A stretch of 64,000 nucleotides of DNA from contig NZ_JAMQCO010000005.1 of assembly GCF_023702225.1 (NCBI RefSeq), positions 248,001 through 312,000 on the forward strand, read 5' to 3'. Of the stretch, positions 6,148 to 57,375 are shown in pieces; positions within the stretch are counted from its first letter, which is position 1, and the number at the start of each line of letters is the position of its first letter. Origin of the DNA: Aureimonas altamirensis. Lineage in GTDB: Bacteria > Pseudomonadota > Alphaproteobacteria > Rhizobiales > Rhizobiaceae. A program made the translations under genes and the position numbers. The notes under the pieces were generated by a model. The model was given only the letters and a program-made list of their open reading frames with translations. It did no database searches and was not told the origin of the DNA.

Positions 6148-6971
6148 GCCGAGCCCAAGACGATCTCCGCGATCTGGAGAGCCTTGCCGTCGAACTGGCG
6201 CAACTGGCCGGCGACCGCATCATCGCCTCCCTCGGTACGGCCCTGGCCGTCAAGTACAAGAAACTCTCCCGCGAGGAAGAGGCCGAGGCGGAGTTCCGCG
6301 ACCCGGTGTCCGAAATCGACAGCGCCGTCGAGGCGGTGCTGCGCGAGCGCCTTGCCGAGCGCTATCCGACGCATGGCATCGTCGGCGAAGAGGAAGGCGG
6401 AGGCGACCTGCCGCCATGCGATTACACCTGGGTGATCGACCCCGTCGACGGAACGGCAAATTTCGTCAACGGCTTTCCCATCTTTGCGGCCTCGATCGGC
6501 CTGGTGCACAAGGGCGACCCCATCGTCGGCGCGGTCTGGTGCTCGACCAGCCACGCGCTGCGGCCGGGGGTCTACCATGCGACCAGCGGCGGCGCCCTGT
6601 TCTTCGACGGGGCTCGCATCGAGGCGGTGGACCGTTCCGCGGTCAAGCGGCGCATCGTGGCCATGCCGAACCTCATGACCGACATGAGCCTCGGCTACGA
6701 GGCGCGGCAGACCGGCTCGGCGGCTGCGGAATGCGCTTTCGTGGCGGCCGGGCTTCTTGCGGGCGCACGGTTCGACTCGCCCAATATATGGGATGTCGCC
6801 GGCGGCGTGCCCCTGGTGCAGGCAACGGGCGGCACCGTGTTGACGCGCCAGGGCGCGGGCCACGACTGGAAGGAATTCCGGCGCTTCGATGCCCCACGCG
6901 GCGTCGTGTGGCGTCAGCCCATGATCATCGGGGGTGGCGAAACCGCCAGCGCATTGGCACTTACGGCCTGA
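6144..6971 (+). CDS. Inositol monophosphatase family protein
   Basis: Mg2+-dependent sugar-phosphate or inositol-phosphate phosphatase, 275 residues. The metal-binding motifs are visible: GEEEG in the N-terminal half, IDPVDGTANFVNGFP (the DPxDGT signature) and the WDVAGGVPLV segment near the C-terminus, which in most members reads WDxAAG. ATGA overlap with the upstream PfkB kinase gives translational coupling. SuhB, HisN-type histidinol phosphatase and CysQ all belong to this superfamily; the context with a kinase does not settle the substrate. Confidence 0.9.
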   Translation: MSRAQDDLRDLESLAVELAQLAGDRIIASLGTALAVKYKKLSREEEAEAEFRDPVSEIDSAVEAVLRERLAERYPTHGIVGEEEGGGDLPPCDYTWVIDPVDGTANFVNGFPIFAASIGLVHKGDPIVGAVWCSTSHALRPGVYHATSGGALFFDGARIEAVDRSAVKRRIVAMPNLMTDMSLGYEARQTGSAAAECAFVAAGLLAGARFDSPNIWDVAGGVPLVQATGGTVLTRQGAGHDWKEFRRFDAPRGVVWRQPMIIGGGETASALALTA

Positions 6972-7070
6972 CGGAAGCGGAATTCTGCGCTTTGTGCGCA
7001 ATAATCATTCCAATGGTAAGGCAAACAGGCTTTATGGGAGGGATCCGAAGCGACCTCCCGTATCATCGAC

Positions 7071-7949
7071 ATGCCCAGCCAGACAGCGTCCACATCCATA
7101 CTCGGCGGCATACTGCTGACCCTGTTTGCCGGCATGATCTTCTCGTCCATGGATGCCGTGGCCAAGAGCCTGACGGGAACGCTGCCCGTCATGCAGGTTG
7201 TGTGGGGGCGCTACGTCTTCCATACGCTTCTGGTCGGCGGCATCCTGACCGCCCGTAGCGGCGGCTTCGGCTATCTCAGGTCGCGTCACCCCGTGCTGCA
7301 GTTCGTCCGGGGCATGTGCCTGCTTTCGTCGACGCTGCTGATGTACATGGCCATCGCGCGCGTGCCGCTGGCCGACGCGACCGCCGTCCTGTTCTTCTCG
7401 CCCGTCTTCGTGACCCTGCTGTCCGTCCTGGTGCTGAAGGAAACGATCGGCATCCATCGCGTCACCGCGGTGGTGGCGGGCTTCGTCGGCGTTCTGCTCG
7501 TGGTGCGTCCGGAACTCGGCCGCACCGATCCATGGCTTCTGCTGCCGCTGGCCGCCGTCGTCAGCAATTCGGTGTACCTGATGATGACGCGCCATCTGGC
7601 GCATGCCGAAAGCCCTGCGGTAACGCAGTTCAACACGACCGCCGCAGGCATGGTCATCATGTGCTTCGTCGTGCTGCCCGCCTGGCAGACGCCGGAACCC
7701 CGGCAATGGGCGCTGATGTTGGTGATGGGTGCGTTCGGCGCCCTGGGCCATACCGTGCTGGTGAAGGCGTTCTCGTTCGCCCCGGCCTCGCTTCTGTCGC
7801 CGTTCCTGTATTCCCAGGTGATGTTCTCGGCGCTGCTCAGCATCTTCTGGTTCGGCGACCCGATGCATCCGCTGACGCTGGCGGGAACGGCTATCCTGAT
7901 CGCCAGCGGACTCTATATCTGGTGGCGCGAGAACCGGAGGCGCCTGTAA
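7071..7949 (+). CDS. DMT superfamily (EamA) transporter
   Basis: 292-residue inner-membrane protein with about ten hydrophobic helices arranged as two EamA repeats (for example ILLTLFAGMIFSSMDAVAKSL at the start and GAFGALGHTVLVKAFSFAPA in the second repeat). Such proteins export or import metabolites, commonly amino acids or nucleotide-sugar precursors, by secondary transport. It is 99 nt downstream of the phosphatase gene and ends before a hairpin that separates it from the convergent SDR gene. Substrate cannot be inferred. Confidence 0.9.
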   Translation: MPSQTASTSILGGILLTLFAGMIFSSMDAVAKSLTGTLPVMQVVWGRYVFHTLLVGGILTARSGGFGYLRSRHPVLQFVRGMCLLSSTLLMYMAIARVPLADATAVLFFSPVFVTLLSVLVLKETIGIHRVTAVVAGFVGVLLVVRPELGRTDPWLLLPLAAVVSNSVYLMMTRHLAHAESPAVTQFNTTAAGMVIMCFVVLPAWQTPEPRQWALMLVMGAFGALGHTVLVKAFSFAPASLLSPFLYSQVMFSALLSIFWFGDPMHPLTLAGTAILIASGLYIWWRENRRRL

Positions 7950-7953
7950 CCAC

Positions 7954-7983
7954 GGCGGGGCGTGGCCGGGGCACGACCCCGCC
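7954..7983. terminator. GC-rich hairpin between convergent genes
   Basis: GGCGGGGCGTG (7954-7964) pairs with CACG (7972-7975) and CCCCGCC (7977-7983), with a single bulged base, around a 7-nt loop. It lies between the stops of the DMT gene and the SDR gene. There is no T-run on either strand, so it may act as a bidirectional barrier or a Rho-assisted terminator rather than a classical one. Confidence 0.45.
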
Positions 7984-7992
7984 CCTGAGGCG

Positions 7993-8724
7993 TCAGGCCG
8001 TCCAGCCGCCGTCGATGACGTGGATCTGGCCGGTCGTGTAGGTGGCGGTCGCCAGGTGCAGCGCCAGGGCCGCGATCTCTTCGGGCTGGCCGATGCGGCC
8101 GATGGGCTGGCGCGCGATGAAGGCGGCGCGGGCGGCCTCATAGTCGCCCCCGGCGCGCAGGCGTTCCTGCAGGGAGGGGGAATCGACCGTGCCGGGGCAT
8201 ATGGCGTTACAGCGGATCCCCTTTCCGACATAGTCGGCCGCGACAGATTTGGTCAGGCCGATTACGGCAGCCTTGGTGACGCTGTAGGCAAAGCGATTCG
8301 GCACCGCCTTCACGCTGGAGGCGACGGACGCCATGTTGATGATGCAGCCATCGCCACGCTCCAGCATGCCCGGCAGGATCGCCTGGATCGTGTGCATCTG
8401 GGCGCGGACGTTCAGGTCGAAGGCGAAGTCCAGATCCTTGTCGGTACATTCCAGGATTGCGCCCGAATGGACGACGCCGGCACAGTTGAAGAGGACGTCG
8501 ATCCGGCCTGCCTCAACCGCGGCGGCCTCCACGGCGCCCGCGTCCAGAACGTCGAGCGTCAGCGTCTCCACGCCGGCGATCGCGGAAAGATCGGCCAATG
8601 CCGCCTCGTTGATGTCGGAGGCGATCACCCGCGCCCCCGCCGCGGCGAACAGTTCCACCGTGGCCCTGCCGATGCCCTGCGCTGCCGCCGTTATGAAGGC
8701 CGTCTTACCCGAAAGGTCGATCAT
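7993..8724 (-). CDS. Short-chain dehydrogenase/reductase, BDH2 (DHRS6)-like
   Basis: 243-residue NAD(P)-dependent oxidoreductase. The nucleotide-binding loop is TAAAQGIG (12-19) instead of the usual TGxxxGIG; the NCAG motif, the SVASS serine and the YSVTK active site are present. The unusual loop and the stretches AAVIGLTKSVAADY and CPGTVDSPSLQER closely recall animal BDH2/DHRS6, described as cytosolic 3-hydroxybutyrate dehydrogenase and later 4-oxo-L-proline reductase; bacterial relatives include sugar-acid dehydrogenases. Start 8724 has AGGAG at 5-6 nt. It is the last gene of a minus-strand group with the kinase and GlcG-like genes, 68 nt downstream of the kinase. Confidence 0.88.
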   Translation of the reverse strand: MIDLSGKTAFITAAAQGIGRATVELFAAAGARVIASDINEAALADLSAIAGVETLTLDVLDAGAVEAAAVEAGRIDVLFNCAGVVHSGAILECTDKDLDFAFDLNVRAQMHTIQAILPGMLERGDGCIINMASVASSVKAVPNRFAYSVTKAAVIGLTKSVAADYVGKGIRCNAICPGTVDSPSLQERLRAGGDYEAARAAFIARQPIGRIGQPEEIAALALHLATATYTTGQIHVIDGGWTA

Positions 8725-52046: not shown

Positions 52047-53706
52047 GTTCCGCAACCCGTGGGCGCTCAGGCGCGCCTTCCCGCCGAAGCCGCCGGCCGG
52101 ACGCGTGTGCGGCGGCCCGTGCGGAGAGGGCCATGATCGTCAGCGTCGGGTTCTGTATGCCGAGCGACGGCAGCGCGGCCGCATCGGTGACGTAGAGCCC
52201 CTTGACGTCCCAGCACTCGCCGTTGGCATCGACGACCGACGTGGAGGGGTCGGAGCCCATGCGCGCCGTGCCGCATTCATGGATGCCGGTACCCGGTGGG
52301 GCGATCTCCTTGCTGAGATATTCGACGTCGATGCCGAGCACCTTCGCCGCTTCCGCCACGCTTTCCAGCATGCACCGGGCGATTGCGCGGTCGGCATCGC
52401 CATAGCGGCAGTCGATGGTGAGGATGGGCACGCCGAACCTGTCCTTGCGGGACGACAGACGCACGCGGTTCTCCGCGCGAGGAAGCATCGGGGCAAAGCC
52501 GACGATGTCGATCCGGGCGCGATCGTCACCGATCGGCTGGCGATGCAGTTGCATCCCGAAAGCGCTTTCCAGCAGTCCGCCCGTCTCCGGGTCTTCCGCC
52601 TGCGCCATTGCCGGCACGTAGATGCAGCGACCATGCTCGACCGTTGCCGACGCCGCGTCGTCGTCCTTTCGCGCATCGACGTAGCCGGCGCAACTGGCGA
52701 CGGCGTGGTCCATGACGAAACGTCCGAGGGCATCGGAATGCATGCCGATGCCCTCCCGGTTCGAGGGATCGCGCGACATCAGCAGGATGCGCGTGGATTC
52801 GAATGCCGAAGCGCACAGGAAGACGATCGGCGCTTCCGCAGACTTGCGCGTGCCGCTGCGGCGATCGATCCAGTCGACGCCGGTCACGTTCCCGCCGCGG
52901 TCCTTGCGCACGCGATCGACGATTGCGCCGGTGGCCAGGGTAAGACGGCCGCTTTCGGCAGCCATCGCGACCCAGTTCGGCGGAGGCGCGTAGCGGCCGA
53001 GAACAGGATGCAGTTCCGGCGACCGGTCGCGGAGCGCGGAGATCATCGCCGCCTCGTCCGGCCGTGGCGCAACGATGGTGTGGATAAGGCTGTCCGGCAC
53101 GAAAGCGGAGCTGTCGTTGCCGCCCCGCAGGCGCAGCTTCTGTTCGAGCTCGGCATAAAAGGGCTCGAGTTCGGAAAGGTCCAGCGGCCATGCAGGCCGC
53201 CCGTGGCGGTCGCCTCCCAGATCGGCCTCCGCCATGCGATAATATTGCCGCCCATGGCCCGGCACCGTCATCCTGCCGCCGAGCTGGCGAGACCGAAACC
53301 AGTTGAACTGGGTACCCGGCGCCGTTTCGTACGGGCAGTCGCGATCGTCGACCAGAGATCCGGGAGACAGTTTCCATGCGAAACATCGGGACTGAACCGG
53401 CTGCCGGACTTTGCCGAAGGCCGACAGGGCCTTCATGCCGAGTGCGTTCAGGACGGGGGGAATGGCTCGTTGGCGCAAGCCGTTTGTGATCGATGCGACA
53501 AGTCGTGCCGATGGCGCGTTGACGCCGGCCAGCGGAGAGGTGGGCTCCCAGCCGGCCTCCAGCACCAGGACGCGCAGCCCGGCATGCGTCAACTCGTGGC
53601 AAGCCACCCCGCCGGCCGCCCCGCTGCCCACGACGATGGCGTCGTACGGTGAGCCCTGCCGACTGTTGAAGATGTCGTGCGAAAGATTATCGGCATGTAA
53701 AAGCAT
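52039..53706 (-). CDS. GMC family FAD-dependent oxidoreductase
   Basis: 555 residues. YDAIVVGSGAAGGVACHEL FAD loop about 20 residues in; SRQLGGRMTVPGHGRQYYRM; C-terminal HECGTARMGSDPSTSVVD and QNPTLTIMALS. This arrangement belongs to the gluconate/fructose dehydrogenase and aminoglycoside 6'-dehydrogenase side of the family rather than the choline dehydrogenase side. ATG 53706 has a weak ribosome-binding site; the frame continues 114 nt upstream through AT-rich sequence. Converges on the aminotransferase gene. Confidence 0.88.
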   Translation of the reverse strand: MLLHADNLSHDIFNSRQGSPYDAIVVGSGAAGGVACHELTHAGLRVLVLEAGWEPTSPLAGVNAPSARLVASITNGLRQRAIPPVLNALGMKALSAFGKVRQPVQSRCFAWKLSPGSLVDDRDCPYETAPGTQFNWFRSRQLGGRMTVPGHGRQYYRMAEADLGGDRHGRPAWPLDLSELEPFYAELEQKLRLRGGNDSSAFVPDSLIHTIVAPRPDEAAMISALRDRSPELHPVLGRYAPPPNWVAMAAESGRLTLATGAIVDRVRKDRGGNVTGVDWIDRRSGTRKSAEAPIVFLCASAFESTRILLMSRDPSNREGIGMHSDALGRFVMDHAVASCAGYVDARKDDDAASATVEHGRCIYVPAMAQAEDPETGGLLESAFGMQLHRQPIGDDRARIDIVGFAPMLPRAENRVRLSSRKDRFGVPILTIDCRYGDADRAIARCMLESVAEAAKVLGIDVEYLSKEIAPPGTGIHECGTARMGSDPSTSVVDANGECWDVKGLYVTDAAALPSLGIQNPTLTIMALSARAAAHASGRRLRREGAPERPRVAELT

Positions 53707-53969
53707 CGCGTGGATCAAATCATCTTTGCCAATTCGACACAGAAACCGTATCCACGTGCCAATCGATATTCTATAACTCAATTTTATAGAGCCATAGACC
53801 GATAGGCTTAAACTACCCACCGATCGAGGTATTGTTTATGGCTGTGGGTTGATCGCAACCGATCGGGCAAAGCTCCTGCACAACAGGCACAAGACAGTCT
53901 GATATGGAGACATAAGGATGTCCTTATATGTCCCTTGACTTTCGCAGACGCATGGAGGAAATTGCCCCT
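53707..53969. other. AT-rich intergenic region upstream of the B12 riboswitch
   Basis: 263 bases without a gene. The part near the GMC gene is AT-rich (TTCTATAACTCAATTTTATA, about 53768-53787). Near its end CTTGACT (53934-53940) with GAAATTG (53958-53964) 17 nt later could be a promoter for the riboswitch transcript. A palindrome at 53909-53932 is listed separately. Confidence 0.5.
53909..53932. promoter_or_regulatory. Palindrome upstream of the mesXD promoter
   Basis: ATAAGGA (53912-53918), TG, TCCTTAT (53921-53927) form a perfect inverted repeat, extended on both sides by GAC and GTC with a 2-nt offset. It lies just upstream of the proposed -35 element. A repressor or activator site is possible; which protein would bind is unknown. 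Confidence 0.4.
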
Positions 53970-54160
53970 GCCTAGGTTCCCCGGCCGTTGCCTGCAACAT
54001 GCCGGGGCTAAGAGGGAAGTCGGTGCTCCGTATGTCTCGGAAAAGCCGGCGCTGCCCCCGCAACTGTAAGCGGCGAGCCAATGTCCAGCATTGTCACTGG
54101 GAGAAATTCCGGGAAGACGGACAGCGGCGCCGACCCGCGAGCCAGGAGACCTGCCTGAGC
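53970..54160 (+). promoter_or_regulatory. Cobalamin (B12) riboswitch
   Basis: The conserved pieces occur in the right order: AGGTTCC (53974-53980), GAGGGAAGTCGGTG (54012-54025), the core GCTGCCCCCGCAACTGTAAG (54051-54070), CACTGGGAG, GGGAAGACGG (54111-54120), and the B12 box GAGCCAGGAGACCTGCC (54139-54155). This is the class I adenosylcobalamin aptamer. It leads the mesX-mesD operon; ligand binding is expected to turn the operon off when B12, and so MetH activity, is available. Confidence 0.95.
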
Positions 54161-54243
54161 ACGATTACGTCCACGGGCGGGGTGTCCCGGTGTGCCGTAG
54201 CGAAGCTGCAGCGATGCGGCCGATATCGCTATGTGTGTGCTGA

Positions 54244-54265
54244 CCCATGCCCCCAAACCATGGGG
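54244..54265 (+). promoter_or_regulatory. Hairpin sequestering the mesX ribosome-binding site
   Basis: CCCATG (54244-54249) can pair with CATGGG (54259-54264) over a 9-nt loop. The GGGG at 54262-54265, 7 nt before the mesX ATG, is the only Shine-Dalgarno-like run and falls in this stem. It is the likely expression platform of the B12 riboswitch, acting on translation initiation. Confidence 0.5.
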
Positions 54266-54272
54266 CCATCAC

Positions 54273-55256
54273 ATGTCTCGGATTGAAAATCCGCTCGCTA
54301 CATTCATGATCAGGAGCACGCGTTTCGACGAGGATTACTGCCCGTCGGAGAATACGCGCATCACGACGAACTTCGCCAATCTGGCGCGAGGCGAGACGCG
54401 GCAGCAGAACCTGCGAAACGCCCTTGCGATGATCGACAATCGCTTCAATGCACTGGCGCATTGGGACAACCCGACAGGCGATCGATACAGCGTCGAACTC
54501 GACATTATCTCCGTCGAGATGAGCATTGCGGCAAATGCTCTGCCGCTGATCGAAATGCTTAAGACGACGGTCCTCGACCGCAAAACCGACACGCGCATCG
54601 ATGGCATCGTCGGGAACAATTTTTCGTCCTATGTCCGCGACTACGACTTCAGCGTCGTGCTGCCGGAGTATAACAGGGATCGGCCCAAATTCGGCGTTCC
54701 AGCGGATTTTGGTGACTTGCACGGCAAGCTGTTCAAGAGCTTTCTACGTTCCGAAGCCTACCTGTCGCATTTCAGCAAGCCGCCGGTCATCTGCATCAGC
54801 GCCTCGACGAGCAAGACCTATCGCAGGACAGAACTCCACCATCCCATCATGGGCGTCGAATATCGGCAGGACGAGGCGTCCTCGACCGATGCCTATTTTG
54901 CCAAGATGGGAATGGCGGTCCGCTACTTCATGCCCGCCGGCAGCGTCGCGCCGCTGGCCTTTTACTTCATCGGCGACCTCTTGGCCGATTACTCCAATCT
55001 GGAACTGATCGGCACGATCAGTACGATGGAGACCTTCCAGAGAATTTACCGCCCCGAGATCTACAATGCCAATTCGGCAGCCAGCGCCATCTATCGGCCC
55101 AGCCTGAAGCATGCCGACTATTCGCTGACCCGCATCGTCTACGATCGCGAAGAGCGTAGCCGGCTGGCCGTGGAACAGGGCAAGTTCGCGGAAGAGCATT
55201 TCATCAAGCCGTACCGGACCCTGCTCGCGCAATGGTCCGCAAAAGCCGCAGCATGA
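54273..55256 (+). CDS. mesX: MesX (DUF1852), partner of methionine synthase MesD
   Basis: 327 residues of DUF1852, with NTRITTNFANLARGE near the start and NALAHWDNPTGDRYSVELDI following. No signal peptide or membrane segment. In aerobic bacteria this family has been shown genetically to be required by the core methionine synthase MesD, together with oxygen; its chemistry is not visible from sequence. Start 54273 fits the family; an in-frame ATG at 54231 adds fourteen unrelated residues. Transcribed under a B12 riboswitch, with mesD 26 nt downstream. Confidence 0.93.
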   Translation: MSRIENPLATFMIRSTRFDEDYCPSENTRITTNFANLARGETRQQNLRNALAMIDNRFNALAHWDNPTGDRYSVELDIISVEMSIAANALPLIEMLKTTVLDRKTDTRIDGIVGNNFSSYVRDYDFSVVLPEYNRDRPKFGVPADFGDLHGKLFKSFLRSEAYLSHFSKPPVICISASTSKTYRRTELHHPIMGVEYRQDEASSTDAYFAKMGMAVRYFMPAGSVAPLAFYFIGDLLADYSNLELIGTISTMETFQRIYRPEIYNANSAASAIYRPSLKHADYSLTRIVYDREERSRLAVEQGKFAEEHFIKPYRTLLAQWSAKAAA

Positions 55257-55282
55257 CCTCCAGGATTACAAGGCCCTACACC

Positions 55283-56311
55283 ATGACAAGACTGCTTCAG
55301 ACATCGACCGCCGGCAGCCTGCCCAAGCCTTCCTGGCTGGCCCAGCCCGAAAAGCTCTGGTCACCCTGGAAGCTGGAGGGCGACGCGCTGATCGAGGGCA
55401 AGCGGGATGCACTGCGGGTGACCCTGGCCGACCAAAGCCTGGCCGGCATCGATATCGTCAGCGATGGCGAGCAGACGCGCCAGCATTTCGTGACCACTTT
55501 CATCGAGCATCTCGACGGCGTCGATTTCGAAAAGCGCGAAACGGTCCGCATCCGCAATCGCTATGATGCCAGCGTGCCGACCGTTGTCGGCGCGGTATCT
55601 CGCCCCAGATCGGTCTTTGTCGACGACGCCAAGTTCCTGCGCCAGCAGACCAGCCAGGCGATCAAATGGGCCCTGCCGGGGCCGATGACCATGATCGATA
55701 CACTCTACGACGGCCACTACAGGAGCCGCGAAAAGCTGGCCTGGGAATTTGCCAGGATCCTCAATGAAGAGGCCAGGGAGCTTGAGGCCGCCGGCGTCGA
55801 CATCGTCCAGTTCGACGAACCGGCCTTCAATGTCTTCTTCGACGAAGTGAACGACTGGGGCATTGCCGCGCTGGAACGAGCAGCCGAAGGCCTCAAGTGC
55901 CAGACGGCAGTCCATATCTGCTACGGCTATGGCATCAAGGCCAATACGGACTGGAAGAAGACGCTGGGCCAGGAGTGGCGCCAGTATGAAAACGCCTTCC
56001 CCAAGCTGCGGAAGTCGAGCATCGACATGGTCTCGCTCGAATGCCAGAACTCGCATGTCCCCATGGACCTGATCGAGCTCATCCGCGGGAAGAAGGTGAT
56101 GGTCGGGGCGATCGACGTCGCCTCCAACACTGTGGAAACGCCCGAACAGGTTGCCGATACTCTGCGCAAGGCGCTGCAGTTCGTCGATGCCGAGGATCTC
56201 TATCCCTGCACCAATTGCGGAATGGCGCCGCTGTCCCGGCAGGTCGCATCCGGCAAGCTTCGGGCGCTGGCCGCGGGCGCCGACATCGTCCGCAAGGAAC
56301 TGACGGTTTAG
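55283..56311 (+). CDS. mesD: Core methionine synthase MesD (MetE catalytic domain only)
   Basis: 342 residues, equal to the C-terminal catalytic half of cobalamin-independent MetE (about 750 residues) with no N-terminal folate-binding domain. Zinc/homocysteine ligands are conserved: H211 and C213 (VHICYGYG), E253 (SLECQNSH) and C312 (TNCGMAPLS). MesD proteins make methionine from homocysteine without methyl-folate or B12 but need MesX and oxygen. Start MTRLLQTSTAGSLPKP with AAGG at 9 nt. Paired with mesX and under a B12 riboswitch, which fits a backup for B12-dependent MetH. Confidence 0.92.
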   Translation: MTRLLQTSTAGSLPKPSWLAQPEKLWSPWKLEGDALIEGKRDALRVTLADQSLAGIDIVSDGEQTRQHFVTTFIEHLDGVDFEKRETVRIRNRYDASVPTVVGAVSRPRSVFVDDAKFLRQQTSQAIKWALPGPMTMIDTLYDGHYRSREKLAWEFARILNEEARELEAAGVDIVQFDEPAFNVFFDEVNDWGIAALERAAEGLKCQTAVHICYGYGIKANTDWKKTLGQEWRQYENAFPKLRKSSIDMVSLECQNSHVPMDLIELIRGKKVMVGAIDVASNTVETPEQVADTLRKALQFVDAEDLYPCTNCGMAPLSRQVASGKLRALAAGADIVRKELTV

Positions 56312-57183: not shown

Positions 57184-57235
57184 GGCGGCGCTCCCTTGCG
57201 CTTGCGCCCGCACGGGCAGGCGTTAGAATGGTGTC

Positions 57236-57325
57236 CACTCACGGGGTGCCCCATCCAGGGGCTGAGAGGCAAGAGCCAACCCGACGAACCTGATCCGGCT
57301 CGTACCGGCGGAGGGATGGGAGACG
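57236..57325 (+). promoter_or_regulatory. TPP riboswitch (THI element)
   Basis: ACGGGGTGCCCC (57241-57252), GGGGCTGAGA, ACCCGACGAACCTGATC and CCGGCGGAGGGA are the universally conserved TPP-aptamer pieces in correct order. It lies about 50 nt before thiB. A GC-rich hairpin (AGGCGG 57334-57339 / CCGCCT 57343-57348, with wider alternative pairing to 57359) occupies the space to thiB, which has no obvious Shine-Dalgarno, and may form the switch. Confidence 0.95.
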
Positions 57326-57375
57326 GTCGCCGGAGGCGGTCGCCGCCTGCGCCTTCCGGCTACCATGGATGCCTC

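Follow-up and report, generated by a model that had tools for sequence, protein, structure and literature searches.

The window analysed here, a stretch of 64,000 nucleotides from Aureimonas altamirensis, carries on its forward strand a cobalamin riboswitch, an expression platform, and the two genes mesX and mesD (Table 1). The two genes are separated by 26 bases, and the gap between the end of the riboswitch and the start of mesX is 100 bases; a full-length riboswitch in this position counts in favour of the interpretation given below. Further downstream, a TPP riboswitch (57232-57333, +) is followed by thiB, a thiP-type permease gene, and an ATP-binding-protein-like frame extending to 60693 (+), by its look an ordinary thiamine uptake operon.

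Table 1. Features of the mesXD locus (window coordinates)
Feature	Position	Strand	Description
Cobalamin riboswitch aptamer (RF00174)	53957..54172	+	130.8 bits, full length
Expression platform	54173..54272	+	fold, coordinates, conservation in relatives
mesX (DUF1852)	54273..55256	+	327 aa; PF08908 587 bits
mesD, folate-independent methionine synthase	55283..56311	+	342 aa; PF01717 116 bits, NF006589 686 bits

Proteins and leader of the locus

The initial annotation had placed a DUF1852 gene behind a cobalamin riboswitch, followed by a MetE homologue that lacks the folate-binding half, and the searches bear out each of these assignments. The first gene matches PF08908, the DUF1852 family that Pfam currently calls MesX. 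Its product is highly conserved, with a mean column identity of 77% over 29 sequences, and the profile of these sequences retrieved no solved relative up to E = 1. For the second gene product, PF01717 is the only Pfam domain listed. This protein also exceeds the curated cut-off (392 bits) of the methionine synthase model NF006589, which in our reading is the model that corresponds to MesD, and an adjoining mesX gene, which is required of a MesD, lies directly upstream.

The zinc ligands proposed previously (H211, C213, E253, and C312) are correctly numbered and align with the matching residues of MetE chains. The best solved relative of MesD is 3rpd_A (650 bits over residues 4-340), the crystal structure of a MesD from another organism, which according to Price et al. 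(PMC7857596) contains selenomethionine. The residues S12, E63, and D178 of our protein are each numbered 10 lower than Ser22, Glu73, and Asp188 of 3RPD, respectively, and by this uniform shift may be equated with the homocysteine-binding residues named for that structure. The retention of both the zinc and the homocysteine residues counts for the best explanation.

As for the riboswitch, the element itself was correctly recognized in the initial annotation, but its boundary was not: the annotated start, 53970, lies 13 bases inside the actual one. The Rfam match covers model positions 1-189 of 189 (E 1.3e-32) and scores well over the gathering score of 31.5 bits. In the computed fold, the platform can form a hairpin between GCCCC (54249-54253) and GGGGC (54262-54266), which covers the likely Shine-Dalgarno sequence GGGG (54262-54265); the last base of this sequence is seven bases 5' of the mesX ATG. 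Among 27 direct-type loci, that is, those in which the riboswitch faces mesX, this hairpin was found by pattern in 20, which again counts for the best explanation, and as a compensated-pair variant (GCCTC/GAGGT) in L055. It was not seen in six (L029, L116, L074, L149, L150, and L151), three of which belong to the genus of the window, and this counts against. So does the folding energy of the platform, which is ordinary for its composition (z -0.72, with 46 of 200 shuffles as good); that of aptamer and platform together is likewise not unusual (z -1.13). No promoter was identified upstream of mesXD, which is also counted against, the one promoter-like site being inside mesX, and no terminator-like site was found between 53700 and 54400.

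Three further candidates in the leader were considered and rejected. The stretch behind the aptamer, which reads ACGTCCACGGGCGGGGTGTCC in many loci, looked strikingly conserved and might be taken for a tandem or second riboswitch, but it is not specific to mesX: close variants also occur 3' of the genome's own nrdA riboswitch and of metR-type and other riboswitches of relatives. The stretch is a general part of the platform. A leader peptide was dropped for the window, where the frames near the hairpin vary, as judged by eye, between species. Control by MetR was dropped as well, because no MetR-like box with at most one mismatch occurs around 53701-54330. Separately, all four Devosia loci inspected (L062, L066, L069, and L077) have a frame of 40-42 codons between riboswitch and mesX. 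It begins at the ATG that follows the riboswitch and closes before the mesX start, which suggests a leader frame or translational coupling there.

Methionine and B12 genes in the genome and its relatives

The assembly searched comprises 4.33 Mb in 41 contigs and is 98.7% complete. It contains one full copy of MetH (1737 bits) and one copy of MetF. MesD is the only match to PF01717, and hence the only MetE-type protein found, while PF08267, the folate half, has no match anywhere in the genome. The genome search for metH, metE, and B12 synthesis genes that the initial annotation had proposed returned one MetH, no MetE, and a B12 cluster. In this cluster, CobW, CbtA, CobQ, a CbiE/CbiT fusion, CobM, CobB, and CobD exceed their cut-offs. 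Three members remain below: CobN, present as a fragment where the examined stretch ends (437 bits, the best hit by a clear margin), a precorrin-6A reductase (214 vs 231), and a sirohydrochlorin-chelatase-like protein (69 vs 120). Judging from these matches, the genome encodes a B12 synthesis cluster, so mesXD would not be a simple replacement for missing B12 genes.

RF00174 has five matches in the genome. Besides mesXD, they precede a class I nrdA with nrdB downstream, the genes of a TonB receptor and a periplasmic binding protein (in our reading BtuB and BtuF), and cbtA-cobW-cobN; this company counts for the best explanation. The B12-dependent nrdJ is present elsewhere in the genome, beside the riboswitch-preceded, B12-independent class I nrdAB. 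Two B12-free isozymes, one for methionine and one for deoxyribonucleotides, thus each stand behind a B12 riboswitch, which forms a consistent pattern. Sun et al. 2013 (PMC3766115) already recognized, as a category, isozymes of B12-dependent enzymes that stand behind cobalamin riboswitches, and the same general principle applies here, also for nrdAB. The isozyme here, however, is MesXD, and the main text of that paper, supplements apart, contains none of the terms metE, PF08908, and 'methionine synthase'.

Within the genus, mesX is present in 7 of 21 genomes, and in all seven loci (L024, L057, and L147-L151) the riboswitch faces mesX, which is counted for the best explanation. The small number of RF00174 matches in 4.33 Mb, together with this unvarying placement, argues against chance. 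The marker cobQ occurs in 20 of the 21 genomes, including every one with mesX. Full MetE is found in two genomes, both other than the mesX bearers; one of them is the only genome without cobQ, and the other has cobQ. Note that the mesX locus of one genome of the genus (G510, L057) is identical over 3,966 bases to that of Aureimonas altamirensis DSM 21988 (L096). A separate observation concerns L149, L150, and L151, which form a divergent MesX branch in the genus, with 62-64% identity to the window's MesX; these loci keep mesD and have a weaker riboswitch (102-108 bits), and the GCCCC/GGGG hairpin was not seen in them.

The family sample has mesX in 13 of 297 genomes, with the riboswitch facing mesX in eight of these loci, divergent in three, and not found in two. 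The phylum sample has it in 25 of 299 genomes, and a riboswitch was shown in 2 of the 25 loci.

Regulatory layouts among related loci

To survey the layouts, the best 80 named loci of 551 relatives were all scanned with Rfam. These loci are related, and the counts are therefore not counts of independent events; for example, L116 and L123 come from one contig, L127 and L053 share the same upstream sequence, and L096 equals L057. A riboswitch faces mesX in 17 of the best 80 loci (direct layout), and in seven (L063, L064, L067, L068, L070, L072, and L073) the riboswitch is upstream of mesX but faces away from it, on the other strand (divergent layout). For the other 56, the Rfam scan gave no riboswitch before mesX; in L099, L104, and L106, which are among them, a riboswitch lies in another part of the locus. 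Going by the names of their records, we read all 24 loci with a direct or divergent riboswitch as alphaproteobacterial. L076, L084, L092, and L106 were also counted as alphaproteobacterial and have no riboswitch before mesX, L084 being so assigned because of its position in the tree, although the name of its record says otherwise. That record is titled Bacillus subtilis and its mesXD locus groups with Pseudochrobactrum; it is probably mislabelled or a mixed assembly. The tree of the loci is a quick one in which 43 of 109 inner branches are open, and for this reason it was not used for counting changes of wiring.

Behind the divergent riboswitch, a thioesterase gene and a LysR-type gene are found in six of the seven loci, and in L073 the LysR-type gene occurs without the thioesterase; Pfam was run for L063 and L073, and the check for a metR-like gene in this position covered these seven loci, not L047, L048, and L058, which also have a divergent riboswitch. 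The LysR-type cluster is present in 38 of the best 80 loci, and its distribution follows the layout: 0 of 17 direct loci, 7 of 7 divergent loci, and 31 of 56 others. In all three proteins tried, the best NCBIfam match is MetR (NF011950), with 193, 197, and 227 bits. None of them reaches the cut-off of 382 bits, and we therefore call these proteins MetR-like only.

The stretch between -350 and -20 of mesX was scanned for the MetR box ATGAA-N5-TTCAT. At one mismatch or fewer, the box is present in none of the 17 direct loci, in 5 of the 7 divergent loci, and in 19 of the 56 others, as compared with a mean of 0.3 and a maximum of 2 of the 80 loci for 19 control motifs composed of the same letters. 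Allowing two mismatches, the numbers become 0, 7, and 28, a count made without control motifs. In a scan of a wider stretch, one direct locus (L074) gave a match, which lies 16 bases 3' of the start assigned to mesX.

We infer that the metR-like product activates mesXD. We further consider it somewhat more probable than not that, in the Alphaproteobacteria, MesXD is controlled by B12 in two alternative ways: either through a riboswitch on mesXD itself, with neither a MetR box nor a metR-like neighbour, or through a riboswitch before a divergent operon with a metR-like gene, the product of which would activate mesXD via the MetR box. If this is true, B12 acts indirectly in the second layout, by way of an activator whose gene is under RNA control, and its signal is joined to the homocysteine signal of MetR.

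The closest precedent is the MetR regulon of Leyn et al. 2014 (PMC4239095), among whose well-conserved members is PF08908-metE2; there, too, this pair of genes is under a control related to methionine. Their MetR box recurs in many of our loci without a direct riboswitch; unlike that regulon, the loci with a direct riboswitch have neither the box nor a metR-like neighbour. Moreover, in that paper MetR orthologues are reported for only one alphaproteobacterial lineage, the Rhodobacterales, whereas here a B12 riboswitch precedes a metR-like operon in seven Rhizobiales loci. A literature search that covered main texts, and few of the subscription journals, brought up no paper in which a cobalamin riboswitch is connected with mesXD or with a metR next to it, so that such a link may be in print elsewhere.

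Two other features of the surveyed loci may be recorded. In 26 of the best 80 loci (e.g. L131, 3348-3941), none of them among the 28 counted as alphaproteobacterial, mesX is immediately preceded by a gene of one cluster; the member tested, from L131, is an NADPH-dependent FMN reductase (PF03358). In L108, L110, and L112, a MetE-sized frame at about 6359-8666 (+), just 3' of mesXD, clusters with MesD and is possibly a full metE beside its substitute.

Proposed role of mesXD

The system to which the locus belongs was described by Price et al. 2021 (PMC7857596). In their experiments, mesD and mesX rescued E. coli metE and metF mutants jointly, not singly, and only with oxygen; the rescuing homologues from S. 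koreensis supplied methionine enough for growth. MesD required MesX and oxygen but neither methyl-folate nor B12, and the methyl donor was left open. These experiments count for the best explanation. As here, their MesD resembles MetE in the catalytic half only, lies next to a DUF1852 gene, has the same zinc and homocysteine residues, and co-occurs with MetH. A difference concerns the putative flavin reductase that they often found near mesD and mesX: none was seen here beside mesXD, and the genome's four flavin reductases of the PF01613 family are all on other contigs, which we count against the best explanation. The word riboswitch is absent from the main text of that paper.

Taken as a whole, the locus represents a known system in well-preserved form, with a kind of control that is to be expected. 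We are confident in the explanation that mesXD is a spare for MetH, free of both B12 and methyl-folate, that is kept off under cobalamin by the riboswitch. The pair would provide an oxygen-dependent route from homocysteine to methionine and would be held in reserve for the B12-dependent MetH. The riboswitch at the 5' end of the message would sense the cobalamin of the cell; with cobalamin bound, the message would fold so as to hide the mesX Shine-Dalgarno sequence, keeping mesXD off while MetH works, and at low cobalamin the pair would be translated. Observed directly are the parts, the residues, the gene inventory of the genome, and the conservation of the riboswitch and the hairpin, whereas ligand binding, this direction of switching, translation as the step controlled, and the activity of mesXD in A. 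altamirensis are presumed. The idea of a B12-free substitute for MetH, put forward in the initial annotation, gains support from the presence of MetH, the failure to find a MetE, and the parallel of nrdAB and nrdJ.

When the spare is needed is a further question. Because B12 synthesis is encoded and all seven mesX-bearing genomes of the genus have cobQ, it more likely serves conditions of low cobalt or B12, or of MetH failure, than a lack of B12 genes. The same two facts fit a narrower proposal, which concerns the role of mesXD and not its parts, namely that mesXD chiefly protects against a failure of MetH itself, e.g. when N2O poisons the Co(I) cofactor of that enzyme, and not chiefly against B12 shortage. 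The N2O tolerance of a Rhizobium and an Acinetobacter has indeed been credited to MesD homologues (2026 mBio, PMC13059711). However, the riboswitch should sense free cobalamin, which may be unchanged when MetH is poisoned, so that mesXD might stay off at just that moment; we regard this proposal as possible but rather doubtful.

With regard to the step controlled, the spare for MetH is likely governed at translation, as predicted from the hairpin over the Shine-Dalgarno sequence in most direct-type loci and from the want of a terminator-like site in the leader; both points speak against control of transcription, by termination or by Rho, which we hold to be improbable. What favours transcriptional control is the strong effect of B12 in two strains of A. 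baumannii, in which the transcript of the DUF1852 gene fell by log2 8.33 and 8.07 (2026 mBio, PMC12892962); this repression by B12 is at the same time counted for the best explanation. The word riboswitch is absent from the main text of that paper, so that the Acinetobacter repression is not tied to one, which we count against the best explanation. Finally, it is very improbable that mesXD methylates homocysteine only marginally and makes mainly some other product: in favour of this, Price et al. assign MesX neither a chemistry nor a methyl donor, and it has no solved relative, but MesD keeps its catalytic and homocysteine residues and the S. koreensis homologues sustain growth of E. coli.

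What is added here to the known system is a B12-capable host in which no MetE was found, a matching switch on nrdAB, and two alternative layouts in relatives. A poorly understood, oxygen-dependent methionine route is thereby connected with a B12 sensor that can be read out, in bacteria whose genomes carry B12 synthesis genes, and the conditions under which the route is needed, whether shortage of cobalt or B12 or poisoning of MetH, accordingly become testable with reporters. The layouts also make a clear case of a single control logic that some species entrust to an RNA switch and others, apparently, to an activator whose gene is itself under such a switch.
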